From NCBI RefSeq assembly GCF_016097415.1, contig NZ_JAEHGE010000001.1, forward strand, positions 2,281,157 through 2,345,156: a stretch of 64,000 nt of DNA, in the 5' to 3' direction. Position 1 is the stretch's first letter. Each line of letters opens with the position of its first letter. The translations under genes and the position numbers were made by a program. The notes under the pieces are model-generated. The model had not been told where the DNA came from and ran no database searches. It saw only the letters and a program-made list of their open reading frames with translations. Origin of the DNA: a sulfur-oxidizing endosymbiont of Gigantopelta aegis. Lineage in GTDB: Bacteria > Pseudomonadota > Gammaproteobacteria > GRL18. This document shows, in pieces, positions 34,398 to 45,666 of this stretch.

Positions 34398-35258
34398 CTA
34401 ATATAAATACTGTTTTACTTGCTCATAGTTTTCCAATACCAGTTGCTGTGCTTCGGGAGACTGTTCGGGGAGGCTGGGTGTCATGCGCAAATATTGCAAA
34501 TAATAGTTGGCCAGTGCTGCCCGAGTCGTGATTTCTAAGGTTTGCTTCTTCATATTATAATCACGAGCAATAATACTTTGTTGAAATTCAGACAAACGTG
34601 GATCGGGAATAATGTTTAAGATAATGTGTGTGTTCCATGCGATATCACCCTCAACCCCATGCTCCGAAGGCAATACTACTTCGGGCACCGAACTAATACG
34701 AGACAAAACAAAATCACGATAATCATTGTTTTTTTCACAATGCGCACGTACATGCCAGCGATAACCCGAATACACCAATGAATGAGGAGTGATAACACGC
34801 CCTTCATCTGTGCCAGAGGTAAAAGATGAATACTGAATATCAAGTCGGTCAATCTGATAGATTGCAGCAATAATCGGGCGAATATTTTCAGGTACAATAT
34901 GTCTTGCAGGTGAAAAAATGACTTCTGTATTAGCTGCCTCCATTTTCAAATAGCTGAGATGAGCGCTTAAATCATTGTTACTATTAAGCAATTGCATATA
35001 TTCATCAAAAGAGCCCTTTGTCACAACGGGCTTAAAATTGTCAGTGGGCTTAAAACCTTTGAGGTGTTTGTCATAAACCAAATTCTCATCTGATATTTCA
35101 GTTCTATAACGTTCAATAATTTTCGAGCCCTGTTGACGTCCAATCGCAAACGCATTGACTAAATGAGTCGCTGTTAAACGACCTTCCCATAATGCCATGA
35201 TTTCTATCAATTGATATTTGAGTAACAAACTTAAACTATAGGTTTCTTGATTACCCAC
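34398..35258 (-). CDS. WYL-domain transcriptional regulator (BrxR/CapW-like), 5' end replaced by IS1595
   Basis: 286 residues as now readable. N-terminal winged helix (LKYQLIEIMALWEGRLTATHLVNAF...GSKIIERYRTEI), central WYL domain with the defence-type signature VYSGYRWHVRAHCEKNNDYRDFVLSRI (split here: SGYRWHVRAHC and DYRDFVLSRI), and a C-terminal WCX-like region. The architecture matches BrxR/CapW regulators of phage-defence loci, which act as dimeric repressors. The present GTG start and its GGAG site lie inside the IS1595 terminal repeat. The native N-terminus MTGKNNINKTYSLSLLL is recovered by joining 36345-36377. Divergent from HIRAN and cas. Confidence 0.85.
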   Translation of the reverse strand: MGNQETYSLSLLLKYQLIEIMALWEGRLTATHLVNAFAIGRQQGSKIIERYRTEISDENLVYDKHLKGFKPTDNFKPVVTKGSFDEYMQLLNSNNDLSAHLSYLKMEAANTEVIFSPARHIVPENIRPIIAAIYQIDRLDIQYSSFTSGTDEGRVITPHSLVYSGYRWHVRAHCEKNNDYRDFVLSRISSVPEVVLPSEHGVEGDIAWNTHIILNIIPDPRLSEFQQSIIARDYNMKKQTLEITTRAALANYYLQYLRMTPSLPEQSPEAQQLVLENYEQVKQYLY

Positions 35259-35280
35259 AAAGCTCCGCCATATTTCGATA

Positions 35281-35368
35281 ATTATACTATAATTATACTA
35301 TAATTATACTATAATTATACTATAATTATACTATAATTATACTATAATTATACTATAATTAAAGTATA
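35281..35368. repeat. 11-bp tandem repeat array (ATTATACTATA x7 plus one degenerate)
   Basis: Seven perfect head-to-tail copies of ATTATACTATA (35281-35357) and an eighth diverged unit (ATTAAAGTATA). Each junction creates TATAAT on both strands, so -10-like hexamers recur every 11 bp. It lies between the IS1595 terminal repeat and the transposase gene, 23 nt upstream of the GTG that now starts the WYL frame. Confidence 0.95.
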
Positions 35369-35386
35369 GATTATGTGTGGAGTAGA

Positions 35387-36339
35387 ATGATGTCAAAAAA
35401 TAAAATTCAGTTTCAAGAAGGTTATAGTTTATTTGAGCTTTTTAATGATTATGGCACTGACAAACAGTGCCGACAAGCCTTATTTAAATGGAAATTTCCT
35501 GATGGATTTGTTTGCCCAGAGTGTGGCAATAAGACTTATTGCACTCTAGAACATCGCCATCTTTATCAGTGCCACCATTGTCATCATCAGACATCAGCAA
35601 CCTGTGGGACAATATTTGATAGTACCAAACTGCCTTTATCTAAGTGGTTTTTAGCGATTCATCTTATGACTCAATTGAAGACAGCGGTTTCAGCATTAGA
35701 ATTAAAGAGACAGCTTAAGGTAAGCTACAATACAGCCTGGAGTATGAAACAAAAGATCATGCAGGTTATGAAAGAACGTGATGACAGTAAACCTTTATCA
35801 GGCATCATTCAAATTGATGATGCCTACTGGGGGGTGGTGAGCACAGAGGCGGCTCCAGAGGTCGTGGTTCAGAAAATAAAACACCGTTCGTTGCAGCCGT
35901 TTCTACTAATGAAGATGGACACCCGATTGCAATGAATTTAAATGTGCTTAAAGGGTTTAAATCCAGTGAAATAAAACGATGGGCACAAACTCATTTAACA
36001 CCTGGAAGTACTGTTTACTCAGATGGGTTAAATTGTTTTCCTGCGGTTAAAGAAGCTGACTGTAAGCATGTTCCAATCGTCACGGGTGGTGGTGCGGCAA
36101 GTGTTGATAAAATTGAGTTTATCTGGGTTAACACTATGATAGGTAATATTAAAAACTCTATGAAGGGAAGCTATCATTCCATTAACTCAAAACATTTACC
36201 TCGGTATCTTGCTGAATTTTGTTATCGGTTTAATAGACGCTTTAACTTAAAAGACATGATGCCAAGGTTTTTATGCGTGGCGATGAAAACGCCACCTATG
36301 AATGGAAAGCTCCTAAAAATGGCGGAGCTTTATGGGTAA
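35387..36339 (+). pseudogene. IS1595-family transposase, one frameshift
   Basis: Zinc-ribbon N-terminus (VCPECGNKTYC...CHHCHHQTSATCGT), then IIQIDDAYWGG with the first catalytic Asp. The frame breaks near 35830 in a G-rich run. The correct frame (HRGGSRGRG, PFVAAVSTNEDGHPIAMNL) continues to STVYSDGLNCF and FIWVNTMIGNIKNSMKGSYHSI. ATG 35387 has GGAG 5 nt upstream. Confidence 0.85.
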
Positions 36340-36344
36340 TCAAG

Positions 36345-36377
36345 ATAGGTTTTGTTGATATTATTTTTACCTGTCAT
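36345..36377 (-). pseudogene. Displaced native 5' end of the WYL regulator
   Basis: Reading from ATG at 36377 gives MTGKNNINKTY up to the IS boundary. Removing the IS and one copy of ATAGGTTT joins it in frame to TYSLSLLLKYQ of the main body. GGGAAG lies 6-11 nt before the ATG, a good ribosome-binding site. Confidence 0.85.
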
Positions 36378-36437
36378 TGCGCTTCCCGCTTAAATCGCTA
36401 TTCCATAACAATACCCCACAATAATGGCATGTGCCTG

Positions 36438-36459
36438 AAAAAGCGACATGTCACTTTTT
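36438..36459. promoter_or_regulatory. 22-bp near-perfect palindrome, candidate operator of the WYL regulator
   Basis: Half-site AAAAAGYGACA followed by its reverse complement, with one mismatched pair (C/A). It is centred in the divergent space between the native WYL start (36377) and HIRAN (36543), 60 nt and 84 nt from them. Position and symmetry fit a dimeric repressor site. It is too short and lacks the U-tract expected of a terminator for either gene. Confidence 0.6.
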
Positions 36460-36542
36460 GCATCGTATACACCGACAATAAATAAGGATACTCTATCTTA
36501 TAGCCTTATTAAATGAAAAAGGAAAAGAAAAAGGACAACATC

Positions 36543-36941
36543 ATGCAAAATAGACGTTCACTACTAAAGAACTTTCTTAGTCTACCGCTGTTGTTTGGTT
36601 TCCAACAACAAAGTCAGGCATTACCGGTACAGAAAAAAACCGTATTAATTAACCGTTTTTCTATTGCGGGCTTTCAATACTATGATGGCCAATCATGCCT
36701 TAAAGAAATAAAGCAAAATGACGTCCTATTATTGTCAGAAGAACCGGATAATCAGTATGATAAATATGCGGTTGAAGTGTCATTCCAGAGTAAAAAGCTG
36801 GGTTATGTCCCCAGAACTGATAACAAACATATCAGTCGAATCCTACAGTCAGGAGGAAAATTAACTGTTAAGGTAGATGAGATTGATTCAGAAAAATATG
36901 CTTGGGATGCGGTCAGGGTGTTGGTTTATATGGAAGTTTGA
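36543..36941 (+). CDS. HIRAN-domain protein with twin-arginine-like N-terminus
   Basis: 132 residues. Start ATG 36543 has AAGGA 8 nt upstream; a frame-compatible ATG at 36513 would add a Lys-rich leader. Residues 1-30 (MQNRRSLLKNFLSLPLLFGF...QALP) look like a Tat or lipoprotein-like signal. The rest is a HIRAN domain: FSIAGFQYYDG, LLLSEEPDNQYDKYAVEV, KLGYVPRTDNKHISRIL. HIRAN domains bind DNA 3' ends in HLTF/Rad5 and occur alone in bacteria. An exported HIRAN protein is unusual. It is the first gene after the palindrome and 104 nt upstream of cas3, in the same direction. Confidence 0.8.
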   Translation: MQNRRSLLKNFLSLPLLFGFQQQSQALPVQKKTVLINRFSIAGFQYYDGQSCLKEIKQNDVLLLSEEPDNQYDKYAVEVSFQSKKLGYVPRTDNKHISRILQSGGKLTVKVDEIDSEKYAWDAVRVLVYMEV

Positions 36942-37045
36942 ATGGTTCAAGTTGCTGATTAAAAAGATAAAATTTAATGTTGAAGGCTGCAGATAAAATA
37001 GTGTGATATCTAAAAACTAATTTAGGATTAGAGAGACTGTAAAAT

Positions 37046-39331
37046 TTGTCAAATTACAAAATAGATAGAATTAAAGTTGCACATGTAAAATTAAAAGAAA
37101 ATGATGAATGGGATGAGCCACATATACTGGATGATCATTTGCGTTGTGTAAAAAAGTTAGCTGCAGAATTTGCCAAGGATATTGATCCTGATTGGGCAGT
37201 TTTGTCAGGGATTTGGCATGATTTGGGCAAATATCGAAAAAGATTTCAGGATTATATTCGCTTACAATCAGGCTATGAGCAAGAAAATGCGCATATTGAA
37301 AATGGTAAAAGAGCACCTCATTCAACGGCAGGGGCAATTCATTCGACTAAAATGTTACCTCTAGGCTTAGGCCATATTATTTCTTATTTGATTGCAGGTC
37401 ACCATGCAGGTTTGCCTGATTGGGATGGTGGTAAAGGCAGTCTTAAATACCGGCTTGTAGATGGAATTGAAGAATATCAAGAAGCTCTGGCAGAAAATAT
37501 ACCTGTGGATATCCTGCATGGAGAATGTCCCGAACTACCTGAAGTAGCAAAATCAGTTGAAAGTATCTCTTTATGGATGAGAATATTGTTTTCCTGCTTG
37601 GTTGATGCGGATTTTCTGGATACAGAATTATATATGCAACCGAAAAAATCGGCACAAAGAAATACTGGTGCAAGCCTTGAGTTACTTCAAACTCGTTTTA
37701 CATCTGAAATGGAAGTATTAAAGAAAAACAGTATTAAGTCTGAATTAAATAACATTCGAAATAATATTTTGCGTGAAAGTATGCTTGCCGCGCACTGGCA
37801 ACCGGGGTTGTTTAGTTTAACGGTGCCGACAGGGGGAGGTAAAACACTATCTAGCCTGGCTTTTGCATTGGAACACGCTCGAATTCATAATAAGAAACGT
37901 GTTATTTATGCTATTCCATTTACCAGTATTATTGAACAAAATGCAGATGTATTTAGACGTTTTATCGGTGATGATGCCGTGTTGGAACATCATAGCAGCT
38001 TGGATGTTGCGCCTAACAAAGAAAATAACAAATCAAGATTGGCTGCCGAGAATTGGGATGTACCTTTAGTTGTGACCACTAATGTTCAATTATTTGAATC
38101 TTTATTTGCATCACGTACCAGCCGTTGTCGTAAACTACATAATTTGGTTAATAGTGTCATTATATTGGATGAGGCGCAACAAATTCCACGGGACTTTCAC
38201 GCGCCTATTACACAGGTGATGCAGCAGTTATCTGAACACTTTGGTGTGACATGGGTGTTATGTACGGCAACACAACCTGTACTAACTGAGTCAAAAAATA
38301 CCTTCGGACAGGTTTTATTAAAAGGTTTAAATAATGTTCGTGAAATTGTATCGAATCCGATTGAGCTTTCCATGCAATTAAAGCGCGTTGAAGTGAAGCT
38401 TCCAGCAGCGGATGAGCCAAAATTAAGTTGGGATGAATTGGCTCTTAAACTTAAAACAGAGGATAGTGTACTTACTATCGTAAATACCAGAAAGCAGGCT
38501 AGGAAACTTTTTGAATTACTGCCTGATGATAAAAATAATCTACACCTATCTGCAAATATGTGCGCACAGCATAGAACAGAAATAATTGAGCAAATTAAAG
38601 AACGATTAGAAGAAAGAAGAAATGGAGGTCAAAGGCCATTAAGAGTTATTAGTACGCAACTAATTGAAGCTGGGGTTGATGTGGATTTTCCTGTCGTTTA
38701 TCGTGCAATGGCTGGGCTTGATTCAATTGCACAATCAGCAGGTCGTTGTAATCGAGAAGGTAAATTAAAAGAATTGGGTAAAGTGATTGTTTTTAAAGCT
38801 GAGCATCCATCTCCACCAGGTTTTTTGAAACAGGGTGAGGAAATAACCAGTGAATTAATAGCATCGGGTCAACTCGATGAACCATTGTCACCCAATAGTT
38901 TTGCAAAATATTTTTCATTGATGAATGCAAAAGGTGATAGAGATAAACATGGTATTTTGGATTTATTGAGGGCTAGTCAAAGCAGTGACGCACCTCTTGC
39001 TATTCAGTTTCGAACTGCGGCAGAAAAGTTTAGGTTAATTGATAACAATGGCGTGTCAATTATTGTGCCGTTCAAACCCGATGGCTCTGATTTAAGTCCG
39101 GTAGAGGGATGGATTGGTCAGCTTGAGGCAGATCCTTTGCAAAAATGGGTTTATAAAAAGCTACAACGCTATACTGTTTCAATAACAGAAAATATGGCTA
39201 AGCAATTTCAGGTAAATGGCTGTATTGATGTCAGAGCTGGATTGTTTGTACTACTTGATAGTTTTTATCATGTACTTTGGGGTGTTGATACACCGGATAT
39301 ATTGATTTCACCAGAAGATAGTGTGTTTTAA
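37046..39331 (+). CDS. cas3: Type I CRISPR-associated helicase/nuclease Cas3
   Basis: Degrades DNA unwound by Cascade. 761 residues. N-terminal HD nuclease: His31, WHDLGKY with His58-Asp59, HSTAG (92-96), GHHAGLPDW (His119-His120). SF2 helicase: Walker A VPTGGGKTLSS (about 261-271), DEAQQIP (about 374), TATQP, QSAGRCNREG (motif VI). TTG start at 37046, with GAGAG 10 nt before; no ATG is available nearby. First gene of the I-C operon. Its 3' end is followed by cas5 after 13 nt. Confidence 0.95.
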   Translation: MSNYKIDRIKVAHVKLKENDEWDEPHILDDHLRCVKKLAAEFAKDIDPDWAVLSGIWHDLGKYRKRFQDYIRLQSGYEQENAHIENGKRAPHSTAGAIHSTKMLPLGLGHIISYLIAGHHAGLPDWDGGKGSLKYRLVDGIEEYQEALAENIPVDILHGECPELPEVAKSVESISLWMRILFSCLVDADFLDTELYMQPKKSAQRNTGASLELLQTRFTSEMEVLKKNSIKSELNNIRNNILRESMLAAHWQPGLFSLTVPTGGGKTLSSLAFALEHARIHNKKRVIYAIPFTSIIEQNADVFRRFIGDDAVLEHHSSLDVAPNKENNKSRLAAENWDVPLVVTTNVQLFESLFASRTSRCRKLHNLVNSVIILDEAQQIPRDFHAPITQVMQQLSEHFGVTWVLCTATQPVLTESKNTFGQVLLKGLNNVREIVSNPIELSMQLKRVEVKLPAADEPKLSWDELALKLKTEDSVLTIVNTRKQARKLFELLPDDKNNLHLSANMCAQHRTEIIEQIKERLEERRNGGQRPLRVISTQLIEAGVDVDFPVVYRAMAGLDSIAQSAGRCNREGKLKELGKVIVFKAEHPSPPGFLKQGEEITSELIASGQLDEPLSPNSFAKYFSLMNAKGDRDKHGILDLLRASQSSDAPLAIQFRTAAEKFRLIDNNGVSIIVPFKPDGSDLSPVEGWIGQLEADPLQKWVYKKLQRYTVSITENMAKQFQVNGCIDVRAGLFVLLDSFYHVLWGVDTPDILISPEDSVF

Positions 39332-39344
39332 ATTAGGGGGGGCT

Positions 39345-40004
39345 ATGGGGTTTTGCTTAGAAGTGACAGGGGATTATGCCTGCTTTACTCGGCCAGAAAT
39401 GAAAGTAGAGCGAGTTAGTTATGATGTGATTACACCGTCTGCTGCTCGGGCTATATTCGAAGCTGTTTTATGGAAGCCTGCGATTGAATGGCATATCCAT
39501 AAAATTGAAGTCTTAAAACCGATTCGTTGGGTCAGTATTCGACGTAATGAGGTTGGTGCTGTATTACCTGTTGGCAATATTAATAAAGCCATGAAAGGAG
39601 GGGCATTACCTGCTTTATATGTTGAAGATGCTAGGCAACAAAGGGCGGGATTATTTCTAAAAAACGTGGCTTATCGACTTCATGGTAGCTTTTCATTAAC
39701 AAAAAATGCAGGCGATTCTGATAACGTCGGTAAATTTGTGGAAATGTTTAAACGCAGAGCAAAGAAGGGGCAGTGTTTTAATCAACCTTACTTAGGTTGT
39801 AGAGAATTTTCCTGTGATTTCCGACTAATTGAGGAGCTTGAAAATGAAAACTCCACAATTGAGGAAAGCAGGGCACTAGGCTGGATGCTATATGATATGG
39901 ATTATCAGCAATCAAATAATCCCATGCCATTATTTTTTAATGCTGTTATGAACAATGGTGTAATAGATGTGCCAGAAAAACAAAGTGATGAGGTTCGAGG
40001 ATGA
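39345..40004 (+). CDS. cas5c: Cas5c (Cas5d) pre-crRNA endonuclease
   Basis: In type I-C, which lacks Cas6, this RAMP protein cuts the repeat hairpin and caps the crRNA 5' handle. 219 residues from ATG 39345, behind a run AGGGGGGG. Signature: CLEVTGDYACFTRPEMKVERVSYDVITPSAARAI (N-terminal beta strand and conserved PSAAR) and WHIHKIEVLKPIRWVSIRRNE, typical of Cas5c. Overlaps cas8c by 4 nt (ATGA). Confidence 0.94.
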   Translation: MGFCLEVTGDYACFTRPEMKVERVSYDVITPSAARAIFEAVLWKPAIEWHIHKIEVLKPIRWVSIRRNEVGAVLPVGNINKAMKGGALPALYVEDARQQRAGLFLKNVAYRLHGSFSLTKNAGDSDNVGKFVEMFKRRAKKGQCFNQPYLGCREFSCDFRLIEELENENSTIEESRALGWMLYDMDYQQSNNPMPLFFNAVMNNGVIDVPEKQSDEVRG

Positions 40005-41743
40005 TATTGCAAGCCTTATGTGATTACTATGATCGTAAGCAGGATGATTTACCTCCATTCGGCTTTGAAGAAAAAGCGATCCCCTTTATCGTTGTTATTG
40101 ATGAAGCCGGTCAATTTATTCAACTAGATGATAATCGAGAAATAGAGGACGGTAAAACCACCATAAAGCCAGTCCGAGTACCAAAAGCATCAGGTAGAAG
40201 CGGTGCTAAATCTTATGAAACGGCATATTGTTTGTGGGATCACTATGGTTATATTGCTGCGCAACCCAAACTAGCAAAACCTGCAGATACGCCTAAAGAA
40301 AAAGAAATAGAAGATGCAAAAAAACAGCATAGAAGTTTTAAAAATCTAGTTTCTAATTTAAGTAGTGAACTATCTGAAGATTCTGGCGTTAAAGCCGTCG
40401 ATTTATTTTTAAATTCAGAAAATGAAGTTGAAAAACTGAAAGCACACGAAACATGGAAGGAATGTTTGAAAATAAAAGGGTGCAATTTAACTTTTAGATT
40501 ATCAGGGAATTCTCATTTAGTTTGTCAATCTCAACAGGTTATTAATTGGGTTGAGCGGCAAGCATTGCCTGAGTCTAGTGTGCACGATGGCTTTTGTTTA
40601 ATTACAGGAAAAAAGAGTAAGATTGTTCGGTTGCATGATTCTGTGAGTGGTGTTAATCAAAAACCTGCACCCCTAGCGGCTATTAATGAGCCTGCATATA
40701 CTTCATTTGGAAAAGATAAGGGGTTTAATTTTCCCGTTAGTGCAGAATCTTCTTTTAAATATGCAGCTACATTAAATTACTTGTTACGTAAATCATCACA
40801 AACAAAATTTCGTATCGGTGAAACCTCATATGTGTGCTGGTCTGATAAAAATAATGCTTTGGAGAATACCTTAGTTTCAATATTTACAGATGCAAAAGAT
40901 GATCCCGATGCAACTACTCAGGCTGTAAAGAGTTTATTTTCTACTATTCATAATGGGGCTTATATTGAAAATGATGGTAATGATAAGTTTTTTGTATTGG
41001 GGCTAGCGCCAAATTCAGCTCGCATTGTCGTAAGGTACTGGCAAGTAGATACTATAGCAGAGTTTTCTGAAAAAATTGCACAATGGTTTAATGATATTGA
41101 TATTAGTGGACGCGATCATTCTGGCTATCCACCATTAAAGAAATTACTTCGTACCACTGCACTTCAATATAAAGATGACAATATATCTCCTAATTTACCA
41201 GCAGATGTTATTCGAAGTATTTTAACAGGAACAAGGCTACCTGATACATTTCTTCAAGCAACATTACGAAGAGTTAGAGCCGAGCAAGGCAAAGTCAGTT
41301 TTAATCGTGCTTGCATAATAAAAGCCTGTCTAAATCGTAAATACCGTTTCTCAACTACTAAGCAGAGGGAATTAACCGTGTCACTCAATAAAGAAGAAAA
41401 ACGACCAGGCTATTGCTTAGGTCGTTTGTTTGCCGTGTTAGAAAAATTACAGGCAGATGCACAGCCAGGTATCAATGCTACTATTCGAGATCGTTACTAT
41501 AGCAGCGCAAGTTGTACGCCAAAATCTGTGTTTGGCACATTAATGCGCTTATCAACTCATCATCTTAAAAAATTGGAAAACCCGGGCTGGAGAATTAATG
41601 CAGAGAAGCGCATTGGCGAAGTCATGGGCTGTATTTCTGAATTTCCATCGCATCTTAATCTGGAAAATCAGGGGCTGTTTGCCATTGGTTACTATCACCA
41701 AAAACAAGATTTTTATACTAAGAATTTGGATAAAGGGGAATAA
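40001..41743 (+). CDS. cas8c: Cas8c (Csd1), large Cascade subunit
   Basis: PAM-recognising large subunit of type I-C Cascade. 580 residues, normal for Csd1. Start [33 protein letters not shown] is the family N-terminus; later [42 protein letters not shown] and [22 protein letters not shown] are conserved Cas8c segments. In I-C an internal start usually yields Cas11c from the C-terminal ~120 residues; I cannot confirm the start here. cas7c follows after 2 nt. Confidence 0.93.
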
Positions 41744-41745
41744 TT

Positions 41746-42606
41746 ATGGGTCTTAATAATCGCTATGAATTTGTTTTGTTATTTGATGTAAAAGATGGAA
41801 ATCCAAATGGAGATCCGGATGCCGGAAATTTACCACGTATGGATGCAGAAACAGGTATGGGGTTGGTTACGGATGTTTGTTTGAAAAGAAAAGTGAGAAA
41901 CTTTGTTCAAATGACGCAAACTGATAATGCAAACAGAAAAATATTTGTTCGTGAAAAAGCAATATTGAATAATATGATTGATGAATCACATGAGCAAGAA
42001 GGGGTAAAAGATAAAGAGAAAGGTGATAAAACAGAAGCTGCAAAAAATTGGATGTGTAAAAATTATTATGATGTTCGTACTTTTGGTGCTGTTATGAGTA
42101 CGGGAAAAAATGCCGGACAGGTTCGAGGGCCAATACAAATGACTTTTTCTCGATCAATTGATCCAGTTGTTGCATCTGAGCATACTATTACACGCATGGC
42201 CGTCACTACATCTAAAGAAGCAGAGGCTCAAAGTGGTGAAAACCGTACCATGGGTCGAAAATTCACCGTCCCCTATGGTTTGTACCGTTGCCATGGGTTT
42301 ATCTCTGCTCATCTGGCAAAACAAACAGGCTTTGATGAAGATGATTTGGAATTATTCTGGCAATCATTAATGCAAATGTTTGATCACGATCGTTCTGCCA
42401 GCCGTGGTGAAATGAGTGCTAGAGGCTTGTATGTATTTAAACACAGTAATGCGCTTGGCCATGCACCAGCAACAGTATTGCTTGATCGAGTTCAGGTACA
42501 GAGAAAAGAAGAATGTGATATTGCCAGAAATTTCAATGACTATCAGGTGGAAATTGATGATTCAAACTTACCTGAGGGTATAGAACTGATTAAATTGTTA
42601 GGTTAA
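41746..42606 (+). CDS. cas7c: Cas7c (Csd2), Cascade backbone subunit
   Basis: Multiple copies polymerise along the crRNA. 286 residues: [27 protein letters not shown] (classic Cas7c N-terminus), [69 protein letters not shown] before the ATG. After it the operon has a 62-nt gap before the RhuM gene. Confidence 0.95.
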
Positions 42607-42668
42607 AAATAAATGTTTAAGTGACCCATCTCTAAATTAATTATCTACAAAACTCAAGACAAGCCCGA

Positions 42669-43703
42669 ATGAGCAGAAAAAAAATCACAAGCAACCCTAC
42701 AAATTTATTTACGGAGTTTATTCTCTATACCACGCCAGATAATAAAGTAAAGGTTGAGATATTTTTAAAAGATGAGAATATTTGGCTGACTCAGGATAAA
42801 ATTGCCGAACTTTTTGGGGTGCAGAGACCGGCAATCACTAAGCACCTGAAAAATATTTTTGCATCTAGTGAGTTAGTTAAGGATTCAGTTAGTTCCAAAA
42901 TGGAACTAACTGCCCAAGATGGTAAAAACTACAAGACTAATTGTTACAATCTTGATGCAATTATCTCTGTGGGCTATCGTGTCAACTCAATACAGGCAAC
43001 ACATTTTCGCATTTGGGCAACGGAGCGCCTTAAAGAGTACATTATCAAGGGTTTTACCATGGATGATGAACGACTTAAGAACCCTGAGCGTGTCTTTGGC
43101 GAAGATTACTTTGAAGAACAGCTGGAACGTATTCGCGATATTCGTTCTAGTGAACGTCGTTTTTATCAGAAAATTACAGATATCTTCGCTCAGTGTAGTG
43201 TGGACTACAGGAAGAACACGGAAGAAACAAAACGATTTTTTGCAACAGTTCAAAATAAACTACATTGGGCTATTACCCAACAGACGGCTGCAGAAATTGT
43301 TCATGAACGGGCTGATAGTCGAAAACAGAACATGGGGCTTAATTCATGGAAAAATGCTCCCGCAGGCCGAGTTCGAAAACCTGACGTTTGGATTGCGAAA
43401 AATTACTTGAATAAAATAGAGCTGGATGAGTTAAACCGTATTGTAACAATGTATTTGGATTATGCTGAAATGCAAGCCAAGAAGATGCAAGTCATGAGCA
43501 TGCATGATTGGTCTAAAAAATTGGATGCATTTCTTCATTTTAATGAAAGGGAAATTCTGGAAAATGCAGGGAAAATCACTGCTGAAGTAGCTAAAAATTT
43601 TGCTGAGTTAGAATTTGAAAAATATCGCATTGTTCAAGATAGATCATTTAAATCAGACTTTGATGAACTGCTAGAGTCACAGAATAAAGATAAGAATAAA
43701 TGA
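42669..43703 (+). CDS. RhuM-family protein inside the cas operon
   Basis: 344 residues. N-terminal wHTH-like part (IWLTQDKIAELFGVQRPAITKHLKNIF), YNLDAIISVGYRVNS and THFRIWATERLKEYIIKGFTMDDERL are the RhuM/Fic-N signature. The C-terminal half is helical and charged. RhuM proteins have no agreed function and are often found beside restriction systems and other defence loci. Its stop overlaps the cas4 start (ATGA at 43700-43703), so it is translationally coupled to the adaptation genes, while a 62-nt gap separates it from cas7c. Codon use resembles the cas genes. Confidence 0.88.
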   Translation: MSRKKITSNPTNLFTEFILYTTPDNKVKVEIFLKDENIWLTQDKIAELFGVQRPAITKHLKNIFASSELVKDSVSSKMELTAQDGKNYKTNCYNLDAIISVGYRVNSIQATHFRIWATERLKEYIIKGFTMDDERLKNPERVFGEDYFEEQLERIRDIRSSERRFYQKITDIFAQCSVDYRKNTEETKRFFATVQNKLHWAITQQTAAEIVHERADSRKQNMGLNSWKNAPAGRVRKPDVWIAKNYLNKIELDELNRIVTMYLDYAEMQAKKMQVMSMHDWSKKLDAFLHFNEREILENAGKITAEVAKNFAELEFEKYRIVQDRSFKSDFDELLESQNKDKNK

Positions 43704-44332
43704 GCGATGATGCACAAACTATTATGCTCTCCGCCCTACAACATTACGCTTACTGTCCACGGCAGTTTGCTTTAATTCATATTGAGCAGGTTTGGGCTGA
43801 TAACTATTTTACGGCTCACGGCAATCTATTACATGAGCGTGTTGACAGTTGTGAGCCTGAACAACGCGGTAATGTGCGCTATGAACGAAGTGTTGCGGTA
43901 AAATCAAAGCACTTACGTATTACTGGAAAACTCGATCTGTTGGAAATTGAAGGTAATCCTCCGGTGCGATACTTTCCGGTGGAATATAAGCGTGGTAAAC
44001 CAAAAATTGAAAGCTGGGATAAAATTCAACTATGTGCTCAAGCCCTTTGTCTTGAAGAAATGCGTAACATTACGATTGATAAGGGTGCACTATGGTATTG
44101 GCAAGTAAGAAAGCGTGAGCAGGTATCATTGGATGATAAATTGCGTTCTGAAACAATAGCTGCCATTGATGATGCTCATTTGATTTTAAGTTCAGGGAAA
44201 ACACCATCGCCAACTAACCAAACAAAACGTTGTAGAGCTTGTTCTCTCGTTGATTTGTGCGAGCCTGATACCTTTAGAGAAGATCATTCCAAAAGTTATA
44301 TTAATGAATTATTTGAACAAGTAAGAAAATAA
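43700..44332 (+). CDS. cas4: CRISPR adaptation exonuclease Cas4
   Basis: Trims prespacers and helps choose the PAM during acquisition. 210 residues: YCPRQFALIHIEQVW with the first Fe-S Cys, GKLDLLEI and VEYKRGKPK (RecB-type nuclease Asp, Glu, Lys), QLCAQALCLEEM, and the C-terminal cluster CRACSLVDLC. Start overlaps the RhuM stop. cas1 follows after 21 nt. Confidence 0.95.
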   Translation: MSDDAQTIMLSALQHYAYCPRQFALIHIEQVWADNYFTAHGNLLHERVDSCEPEQRGNVRYERSVAVKSKHLRITGKLDLLEIEGNPPVRYFPVEYKRGKPKIESWDKIQLCAQALCLEEMRNITIDKGALWYWQVRKREQVSLDDKLRSETIAAIDDAHLILSSGKTPSPTNQTKRCRACSLVDLCEPDTFREDHSKSYINELFEQVRK

Positions 44333-44353
44333 GGAATACTGTATCAGAATATT

Positions 44354-45370
44354 ATGAAAAAATTACTGAACACTCTTTATATTACGCGCCAAGAAAGCTA
44401 TCTTCATAAAGAGCGTGAAACTATTATTATAAAAAAGGGCAAGGATAAACTCGGTCAGTTTCCGGCTATCAATATTGCTAACATTCTTTGCTTTGGACAA
44501 GTATCTGTATCCCCTTTTCTTATGGGCTTTTGTGGAGAGCAGGGAATTAATCTCTCTTTTTATAGCGAATATGGTAAATTTCTTGCCCGAGTACAAGGTA
44601 AACAGTCAGGTAATGTTTTACTGAGGCGAGCCCAATATCGTTGGGCAGATGATACTGAGAAATCAGTCTCTATTGCTCGTTTGATAGTAGCGGCTAAAAT
44701 TGCCAATAGTCGTGCAGTGCTATTGCGTGAAATACGTAATCATGGCGAAAACATGAAATTATCCGAAGTTTCTACACATTTAGCTGCAAGTATACGTCAT
44801 GCTCAGCATGCAGATAGTATCGGTGAATTGATGGGAATAGAAGGTGATGCGGCAAGTGCTTATTTTTCAGTTTTTAATGAGTTATTAATTGCTAGTGATT
44901 TTAATTTTAGTGTTAGGGTTCGCCGTCCTCCCACAGATGCTGTCAATGCATTGTTATCGTTTGCCTATACTCTGATTGGTAATGAATGTGCATCAGCCTT
45001 GCAAGGTGTTGGATTGGATCCTTATGTTGGCTATTTACATCAGGATAGGCCAGGGCGAACCAGTCTCGCTCAGGATTTGTTGGAGGAATTCCGAGCTTCT
45101 TGGGCAGATCGTTTTGTGTTGACGCTAATTAACCGTAAACAGATTAAAGCTAATGATTTTATCACTGAAGCGAGTGGTGCTGTTCGCTTAAAAGATGATG
45201 CTAGGAAAATATTTTTGACCGCATGGCAAAAACGTAAGCAAACAGAAATACTGCATCCCTATTTGAATGAACAAATTCCTATTGGACTGTTACCTCACTG
45301 TCAGGCAATGCTCTTAGCTAGACATATTCGGGGTGACACTGAATTTTATACCCCCTATTTGGTTAAATAA
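44354..45370 (+). CDS. cas1: CRISPR integrase Cas1 (type I-C)
   Basis: Integrase subunit of the adaptation complex. 338 residues, starting KKLLNTLYITRQESYLHKE, the I-C type start. Catalytic residues in LMGIEGDAASAYF (Glu163), YLHQDRPGRTSL (His229) and QDLLEEFR (Asp241/Glu244). Two nt separate it from cas2. Confidence 0.96.
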   Translation: MKKLLNTLYITRQESYLHKERETIIIKKGKDKLGQFPAINIANILCFGQVSVSPFLMGFCGEQGINLSFYSEYGKFLARVQGKQSGNVLLRRAQYRWADDTEKSVSIARLIVAAKIANSRAVLLREIRNHGENMKLSEVSTHLAASIRHAQHADSIGELMGIEGDAASAYFSVFNELLIASDFNFSVRVRRPPTDAVNALLSFAYTLIGNECASALQGVGLDPYVGYLHQDRPGRTSLAQDLLEEFRASWADRFVLTLINRKQIKANDFITEASGAVRLKDDARKIFLTAWQKRKQTEILHPYLNEQIPIGLLPHCQAMLLARHIRGDTEFYTPYLVK

Positions 45371-45372
45371 TT

Positions 45373-45666
45373 ATGCTTGTACTTGTTACTTATGATGTTA
45401 GTGTGATTTCTACCGGAGGACAGCGTCGCTTACGACGAATTGCTAAAACGTGTTTAGATCATGGCATGAGGGTGCAAAATTCTGTTTTTGAATGTGAAGT
45501 CACACCTGCACAATTTGTTCAACTTAAAAGCGAGTTAGTAGATATTTTTGATTCAAAAAAAGATAGTTTGCGTTTTTATATGCTTGGGAAAAAAGGACGT
45601 CAGAAGGTTGAACATCTTGGAGCAAAGCCTGTTTTAGATCCCATCAATGATGCTTTAATTCTTTAA
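45373..45666 (+). CDS. cas2: CRISPR-associated Cas2
   Basis: Dimeric scaffold for Cas1 in spacer integration. 97 residues, ferredoxin-like: LVLVTYDVSVISTGGQRRLRRIAK (Asp8), GMRVQNSVFECEV, LRFYMLGKKGR. Last cas gene; the leader begins right after its stop. Confidence 0.96.
   Translation: MLVLVTYDVSVISTGGQRRLRRIAKTCLDHGMRVQNSVFECEVTPAQFVQLKSELVDIFDSKKDSLRFYMLGKKGRQKVEHLGAKPVLDPINDALIL

Follow-up and report, generated by a model that had tools for sequence, protein, structure and literature searches.

A candidate operator for a BrxR-type WYL regulator located beside type I CRISPR-Cas operons

The region between the WYL and HIRAN genes of the window, which is the whole stretch of 64,000 nucleotides analysed here, probably contains the operator of a BrxR-family WYL repressor that controls the HIRAN-cas genes. 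The comparative evidence provides a testable operator for a BrxR-type regulator located beside CRISPR-Cas systems, common to three subtypes. To our knowledge, operators have been defined for only a small number of regulators dedicated to cas operons. An operator between the WYL gene and the HIRAN-cas side had been proposed in the preliminary description of this DNA. Its place and the family of the regulator stand, while the exact palindrome chosen as the operator does not, the conserved unit being a 48-bp block instead (Table 1).

Table 1. Features of the WYL-HIRAN-cas locus, in window positions
Feature	Position	Strand	Details
BrxR-type wHTH-WYL regulator ORF, 286 aa	34398..35258	-	start is a GTG within the IS end
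IS1595-family element	35246..36344	+	within the 5′ end of the WYL gene
ATG where intact orthologues predict the WYL start	36375..36377	-	now separated from the WYL ORF by the IS
48-bp conserved block, candidate operator	36427..36474	+	weight matrix and alignment
O2, predicted distal BrxR-type dimer site, 25 bp	36428..36452	+	ATGTGC + ACATGT; putative assignment
22-bp palindrome	36438..36459	.	AAAAAGCGACA followed by TGTCACTTTTT; 10/11 pairs, arms 91% complementary, no gap
O1, predicted promoter-proximal dimer site, 25 bp	36451..36475	+	outer half ACACCG 36469-36474; putative assignment
Predicted HIRAN/cas promoter	36466..36494	+	-35 TATACA 36466-36471, 17-bp spacer, -10 TACTCT 36489-36494
HIRAN-domain protein, Tat-like leader MQNRRSLLK...	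36543..36941	+	PF08797, E 3.5e-15
Type I-C operon: cas3, cas5c, cas8c, cas7c, rhuM-like insert, cas4, cas1, cas2	37046..45666	+

The locus and its regulator

The window contains a WYL-domain ORF, a HIRAN gene and the complete I-C set cas3-5-8c-7-4-1-2. The PF08797 match of the HIRAN gene reaches 56 bits at a cut-off of 24.7, and together with the complete set of cas genes it confirms the HIRAN gene and I-C cas unit of the preliminary description. Between cas7 and cas4 of the operon, a gene of the RhuM family is present (42669-43703; PF13310; PADLOC PDC-S05). The divergent orientation of the WYL and HIRAN genes, also described before, was borne out, though the WYL gene is interrupted at its 5′ end by an IS1595-family element. 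The element is flanked by the 8-bp target duplication ATAGGTTT (35238-35245 and 36345-36352) and has cut the original first codons from the ORF, the remainder of which starts at the GTG in the IS end. The WYL gene of the window is not intact, as the element lies between the ORF on one side and the start region with the block on the other. Due to this split from the intergenic region, autoregulation in the window is probably lost, and the WYL gene may no longer control its own locus or may do so differently. The GTG may still serve as a start codon for the ORF.

The end of the element facing the WYL ORF contains an 11-bp tandem repeat, ATAATTATACT, present in 8.7 copies (35278-35374). TATAAT-like hexamers are abundant in this repeat and could drive the downstream ORF. 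Two further loci of the same genome (L042 on G000:C2 and L043 on G000:C1) carry parts of the window, comprising the WYL gene and IS1595, as nearly identical, decayed duplicates, and their alignments to the window contain many small gaps. The operator and the HIRAN gene were not seen in either of them, the alignment of the former stopping at 36190 and that of the latter skipping 36150-37332.

The WYL protein has the fold composed of a wHTH, a WYL and a C-terminal domain, as found by Pfam, by sequence matching to the PDB and by an AlphaFold model. Pfam detects the WYL domain with an E value of 4e-13, and a WCX match is not reported. The best sequence relative in the PDB is BrxR (7T8K/7T8L; E 8.2e-54, residues 10-277), followed by CapW. 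The model (mean pLDDT 71.4) likewise places 7T8K first (Z 20.8, 245 aligned residues, rmsd 6.9), then 7T8L (Z 20.3) and the CapW and 7QFZ BrxR entries (Z 16.4-19.7), with PafBC (Z 12.5) and DriD (Z 11.6) lower in the list. The DNA-reading motif, (S/G)RQQ and KG(Y/F), is present in the protein. Its R40-Q41-Q42 aligns with R38-Q39-Q40 of BrxR, residues which contact DNA (PMC9122589; this and the other PMC articles are cited from excerpts of their text). This triplet is invariant in 15 of 15 homologues, in which G67 is invariant as well and K66 nearly so. The PDB match, the score of the model and the invariant RQQ all uphold the initial assignment of the protein to the BrxR/CapW-like WYL regulators.

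The conserved block and its predicted dimer sites

The search covered 24 genomes of the order, including that of the window, and WYL orthologues (about 58% identity or more) were found in 10 of them. On the operator side of these ten loci, I-C genes are located in two (the window and G005) and I-F2 genes, recognised by cas1fv, in seven; in G006, cas1fv is followed by cas3fv, cas7fv, cas5fv and cas6f. The tenth locus (G022) reaches the contig end on this side, with no recognised gene. A HIRAN gene lies between the WYL gene and the cas side in half of the loci (5/10). The ten intergenic regions, which share descent and do not represent independent events, align nearly gap-free across a 48-column block with a mean pairwise identity of 0.68. 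The identity is 0.34 for the flank on the WYL side (0.42 if the count is restricted to pairs sharing at least 8 columns), 0.40 for the spacer of the promoter, 0.74 for the -10 hexamer and 0.43 for the downstream part. The block overlaps the predicted -35, which puts a conserved site into the promoter of the neighbouring defence operon. With a weight matrix built on the nine relatives, position 36427 of the window reaches 51.6 bits, and the next best place in the 64 kb scores -8.9. When each relative was left out in turn, the expected site ranked first in 9 of 9 cases, with 2.4 bits in G022, which carries a deletion, and 31.7-57.7 bits in the others.

The block ends with TATACA, followed by exactly 17 bp and TAYNNT, in all 12 sites, that is, the 10 WYL loci and two orphan sites described below. 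Judged by its sequence, this arrangement is a plausible sigma-70 promoter for the HIRAN/cas side. Three half-sites are present in the block of the window: ATGTGC (36429-36434), ACATGT (36446-36451) and ACACCG (36469-36474). The first two, positioned 11 bases apart as G-7/C+7 around an A-tract (AAAAA, 36438-36442), would form the distal site O2. The third would be the outer half of the proximal site O1, which extends from -50 to -26 relative to the predicted start at 36501. The inner half of O1 is degenerate in the window; it is intact in G004, G005 and G006 (3/12 sites) and has one mismatch in G009, and the other eight sites show the outer half alone. Compared by hand with AYRTGT-N11-ACAYRT, O2 has at most one mismatch in 6 of the 12 sites, two in 3 and three in 3, and for several relatives the best N11 match sits elsewhere than O2.

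The distance between the half-sites was analysed by a spacing scan with AYRTGT and ACAYRT. In the 10 regions of the order, a spacing of k=11 gives a sum of 11 mismatches (mean of shuffles 32.8, minimum 28), and k=17, which joins ACATGT to the ACA at the -35, ties with it at 11; in an unguided dyad scan, the k=17 centre ranks first. In 7 homologues outside the order, k=11 is the best spacing, with a sum of 11 (mean of shuffles 23.8, minimum 18), followed by k=9 with 14 and k=17 with 15. The N11 pair occurs with at most one mismatch in 6 of 11 homologues outside the order (L045, L046, L047, L058, L072 and L073) and was not found at this setting in the other five (L048, L059, L060, L074 and L075); among these, the sequences of L045-L048 and L058-L060 were known before the spacing scan, and L072-L075 were fetched after the half-site had been fixed. 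The pair thus recurs upstream of WYL homologues of 40-46% identity from Pseudomonas, Enterobacter, Aeromonas and G184. An example of such recurrence is provided by two Aeromonas records, which read ACATGT-CGCATTTTGGA-GCACAT and ACATGT-CGCATTTTGGA-GCACGT, compared with ACATGT-CGCTTTTTCAG-GCACAT on the minus strand of the window. The Aeromonas WYL proteins with these near-O2 sites are just 40-43% identical to that of the window. The scans suggest two abutting BrxR-type sites, for which the exact pairing, k=11 or k=17, is not unique.

Proposed control of the HIRAN-cas side

In the proposed mechanism, WYL dimers would bind two abutting 25-bp sites, O2 through ATGTGC-N11-ACATGT and O1 through ACACCG over the -35. 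The bound dimers would block RNA polymerase, and the expression of the HIRAN-cas genes would be held low. Single-stranded DNA arising from damage or infection would then release the repressor, as the published work on CapW and BrxR leads us to infer. Occlusion of the -35 is the most likely reading because of the position of O1 and the behavior of BrxR and CapW. A point against this mechanism comes from Acinetobacter, where restriction was little affected by a stop codon in brxR (PMC9122589).

Alternatively, the WYL protein could be an activator that occupies positions near -38 and -61 and brings RNA polymerase to a poor -35 in the manner of PafBC and DriD. All 12 sites have TATACA, a departure from the consensus, as their -35, and the centres of the predicted sites, near -38 and -61 from the predicted start, would suit an activator. 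PafBC and DriD, both found in the fold list (Z 12.5 and 11.6), are WYL activators according to the titles of their PDB entries. The closest characterised relatives, however, are described as repressors, namely BrxR of E. fergusonii (PMC9122601) and CapW (PMC9122588). In Acinetobacter, deletion of brxR raises the expression of BrxC, and the BrxR site over the -35 coincides in position with the predicted O1 (PMC9122589). Activation is therefore an unlikely mode of action for this protein.

The block also recurs at sites without an adjoining WYL gene. A first pattern, allowing at most one mismatch, matched 9 places in the 24 genomes, 7 of them at WYL loci and 2 elsewhere. The full-block pattern at the same setting matched 11 places, which are 9 of the 10 WYL loci (G022 was missed) and two orphan sites; the patterns were built from the WYL loci, and the orphans are their independent yield. 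All 11 matches are located upstream of a HIRAN gene, a HIRAN remnant or a cas gene. The first orphan (G003:C93) precedes cas3, 71% identical to that of the window, followed by cas5, cas8c and cas7 of subtype I-C. The WYL gene of this genome is located on a different contig, where it adjoins an I-F2 system. One WYL gene would in this case control I-F2 in cis and I-C in trans, and G003 is a natural case that suggests control in trans. The I-F2 locus of G003 also contains a 296-aa ORF with no Pfam or PADLOC match, situated between cas1fv and a cas3fv-like gene (L041, 12724-13614). Downstream of the second orphan (G009:C35) are the remnant of a HIRAN gene and an I-E cas3 in truncated form (L085, 102-1540). 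No WYL homologue was found in G009 at E 1e-10, and this well-kept operator is a relic site.

Several wider searches accompanied these scans. Two matches of the full-block pattern with three mismatches (G001 and G015) were taken as chance because their loci show no I-C cas, cas1fv, WYL or HIRAN homologue; the reversed control of the pattern at the three-mismatch setting also gives 2 matches. Across 369 genomes of the class, the O2 pattern with at most one mismatch is found in the window and G009 only, and its reversed control in one other genome. The O2 pattern has no exact match in the viral contigs. The search of 36340-36700 against Rfam returned a single match, so far below the gathering score that no RNA element is claimed.

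A different origin of the conservation would be that the block is the site of an unrelated host regulator, or merely a strong promoter common to these loci. The block overlaps the predicted promoter, and a copy of it persists in G009 in spite of the missing WYL homologue. The loci of cas1fv, present in 10 of the 24 genomes, speak against such an origin. The WYL gene adjoins cas1fv in seven of these genomes and not in G009, G012 and G007, the cas1fv proteins of which are 86-91% identical to that of G006. In the fetched loci of these three, the block is absent, with best scores of -17.5, -18.3 and -28.7, where the G007 control comes from a genome 64% complete with a partial cas1fv match and G012 carries, at another place in the genome, a WYL gene of 30% identity that is only distantly related. 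The element thus seems to follow the regulator and not the cas gene. Furthermore, the block is longer than a promoter, and the N11 half-site pair recurs upstream of the WYL homologues of 40-46% identity named above. Taken together, a host regulator or a shared promoter is an improbable source of the block.

The 22-bp palindrome with one mismatch, reported initially between the WYL and HIRAN genes, does exist. Searched with up to three mismatches, the palindrome of the half-site AAAAAGYGACA occurs once in the 64-kb window (shuffle expectation 0.01) and at one place only in the whole genome of 4.9 Mb. When the 165-bp intergenic region is shuffled with its dinucleotides preserved, 6 of 5000 shuffles yield a 22-bp palindrome pairing at 10 or more of its 11 positions; the window as a whole contains 9 such palindromes, six inside the IS tandem repeat, and ten shuffles of it contain 0-2 each. 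Conservation of the palindrome upstream of orthologous genes had been set beforehand as a check, which the palindrome fails and the longer 48-bp block at this place passes. In the 10 aligned intergenic regions, 10 of 11 positions pair in the window and 7, 6, 6, 6, 5, 6, 6, 7 and 6 in the nine relatives. The lower numbers stem from variation in the right half (CACTTTTT). The palindrome is locally unusual yet not conserved, and the alignment rules it out as the conserved unit. That it is itself the operator, with AAAAAGYGACA read by the dimer, is highly improbable in spite of its 10/11 pairs and rarity by chance, given the 5-7 pairs in the orthologous regions and an even centre which misfits the odd-centred 10+5+10 site of BrxR.

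HIRAN proteins and a possible cassette

The five HIRAN proteins that adjoin WYL genes in the order begin with leaders such as NRRSLLK, GRRHFLK and NKRTFLK, which are called Tat-like here by comparison with the Tat consensus. A sixth, more distant HIRAN match of the order (33%) is present in G016. Across the class, a HIRAN relative at E <=1e-12 occurs in 10 of 368 other genomes. Outside the order, HIRAN is located near WYL and cas genes in seven of ten HIRAN-bearing genomes. The subtypes found there are I-G (L110, L118), I-E (L112, L115), I-F2 (L111) and I-C (L117), and L116 has a weak cas5 fragment at the contig end, near HIRAN and WYL. In these seven loci the WYL and HIRAN genes point the same way, and the WYL proteins near HIRAN outside the order carry the Pfam domains WYL and WCX, most of them also HTH_11. 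At L119, queries for I-C, cas1fv and I-F2, together with the ORF list and a Pfam search of the WYL protein, showed a WYL gene and no cas gene; at L113 and L114, neither WYL nor cas was seen with the same queries and the ORF list. HIRAN genes with Tat-like leaders near WYL and type I cas genes are those of the window and of L053-L056, L100, L101, L103 and L106-L109.

These elements might, as a tentative and broader reading, form a transferable cassette. It would comprise a WYL repressor sensing single-stranded DNA, the double operator of this repressor and a HIRAN protein exported by Tat, and would have become attached to several subtypes of type I CRISPR-Cas. DNA damage, or single strands made by Cas3, would induce immunity, and one regulator would serve two systems per cell. 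The subtypes involved would be I-C, I-F2 and a relic I-E here, and I-C, I-E, I-F2 and I-G elsewhere, with another type of WYL protein. If so, HIRAN would act after its export as a CRISPR accessory not recognised so far, meeting the incoming DNA outside the cytoplasm. The recurrent HIRAN gene with a Tat-like leader is the second gene linked to CRISPR here and is unexplained. No such connection between HIRAN and CRISPR was found in the literature searched, with most subscription journals outside its scope.

Comparison with known systems

The characterised regulator most similar to that of the window is BrxR of Acinetobacter sp. NEB394 (7T8K, 7T8L), a member of the same family with 35% identity over 97%, which shares the recognition residues RQQ and KG(Y/F). 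The excerpts of PMC9122589 describe its site as a 25-bp pseudo-palindrome with a 5-nt spacing, at -51 to -27, in which R38 contacts positions 6 and 7. Placed in L048 by the coordinates of the article, this site reads ATACCGTAAA-AATAA-TTTACTGTAT. Like the predicted O2, it has the GT-N11-AC geometry, with the contacted G and C of the half-sites 14 bp apart, and like the predicted O1, it lies over the -35. The NEB394 protein differs in that it regulates BREX, is encoded upstream in the same operon and, as excerpted, has the half-site GTAAA, whereas the WYL gene of the window is divergent, its operator looks double and its neighbours are CRISPR-Cas operons.

CapW of CBASS (PMC9122588; 7TB5, 7TB6, 9C5G) is alike in that a WYL dimer represses a defence operon through a palindrome in the shared promoter region. 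Its palindrome, however, lies over the -10, and its target is CBASS (PMC9122588, in the portions seen). The entry 9C5G is titled as CapW bound to single-stranded DNA, and the release of CapW/BrxR by single-stranded DNA is stated in the excerpts of PMC13373217. If the WYL protein senses single-stranded DNA as reported for CapW/BrxR, the CRISPR systems under its control would be damage-inducible. A WYL protein repressing a CRISPR-Cas locus, of subtype I-D, is also known in Synechocystis, namely Sll7009 (PMC9122601, PMC4012209, both excerpted). Between Sll7009 and the E. fergusonii BrxR, no significant sequence similarity is noted in the excerpts of PMC9122601.

The preliminary description regarded a BrxR/CapW-like gene beside a I-C system as an arrangement not known to be described. 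As a class, BrxR homologues near CRISPR-Cas are published, making up 21 of 210 BrxR-associated defence systems in the part of PMC9122601 consulted, and this family association is common to both works. That survey differs in having looked 50 kb downstream, and its excerpts give no operator common to subtypes. The specific pairing of I-C, I-F2 or I-E with a BrxR-type regulator and a shared operator was not found described in the literature searched. Novelty appears to lie in the operator that three subtypes have in common, in the orphan sites and in the HIRAN cassette. The shared operator sequence suggests that several kinds of CRISPR immunity are turned on and off by regulators of a single kind.
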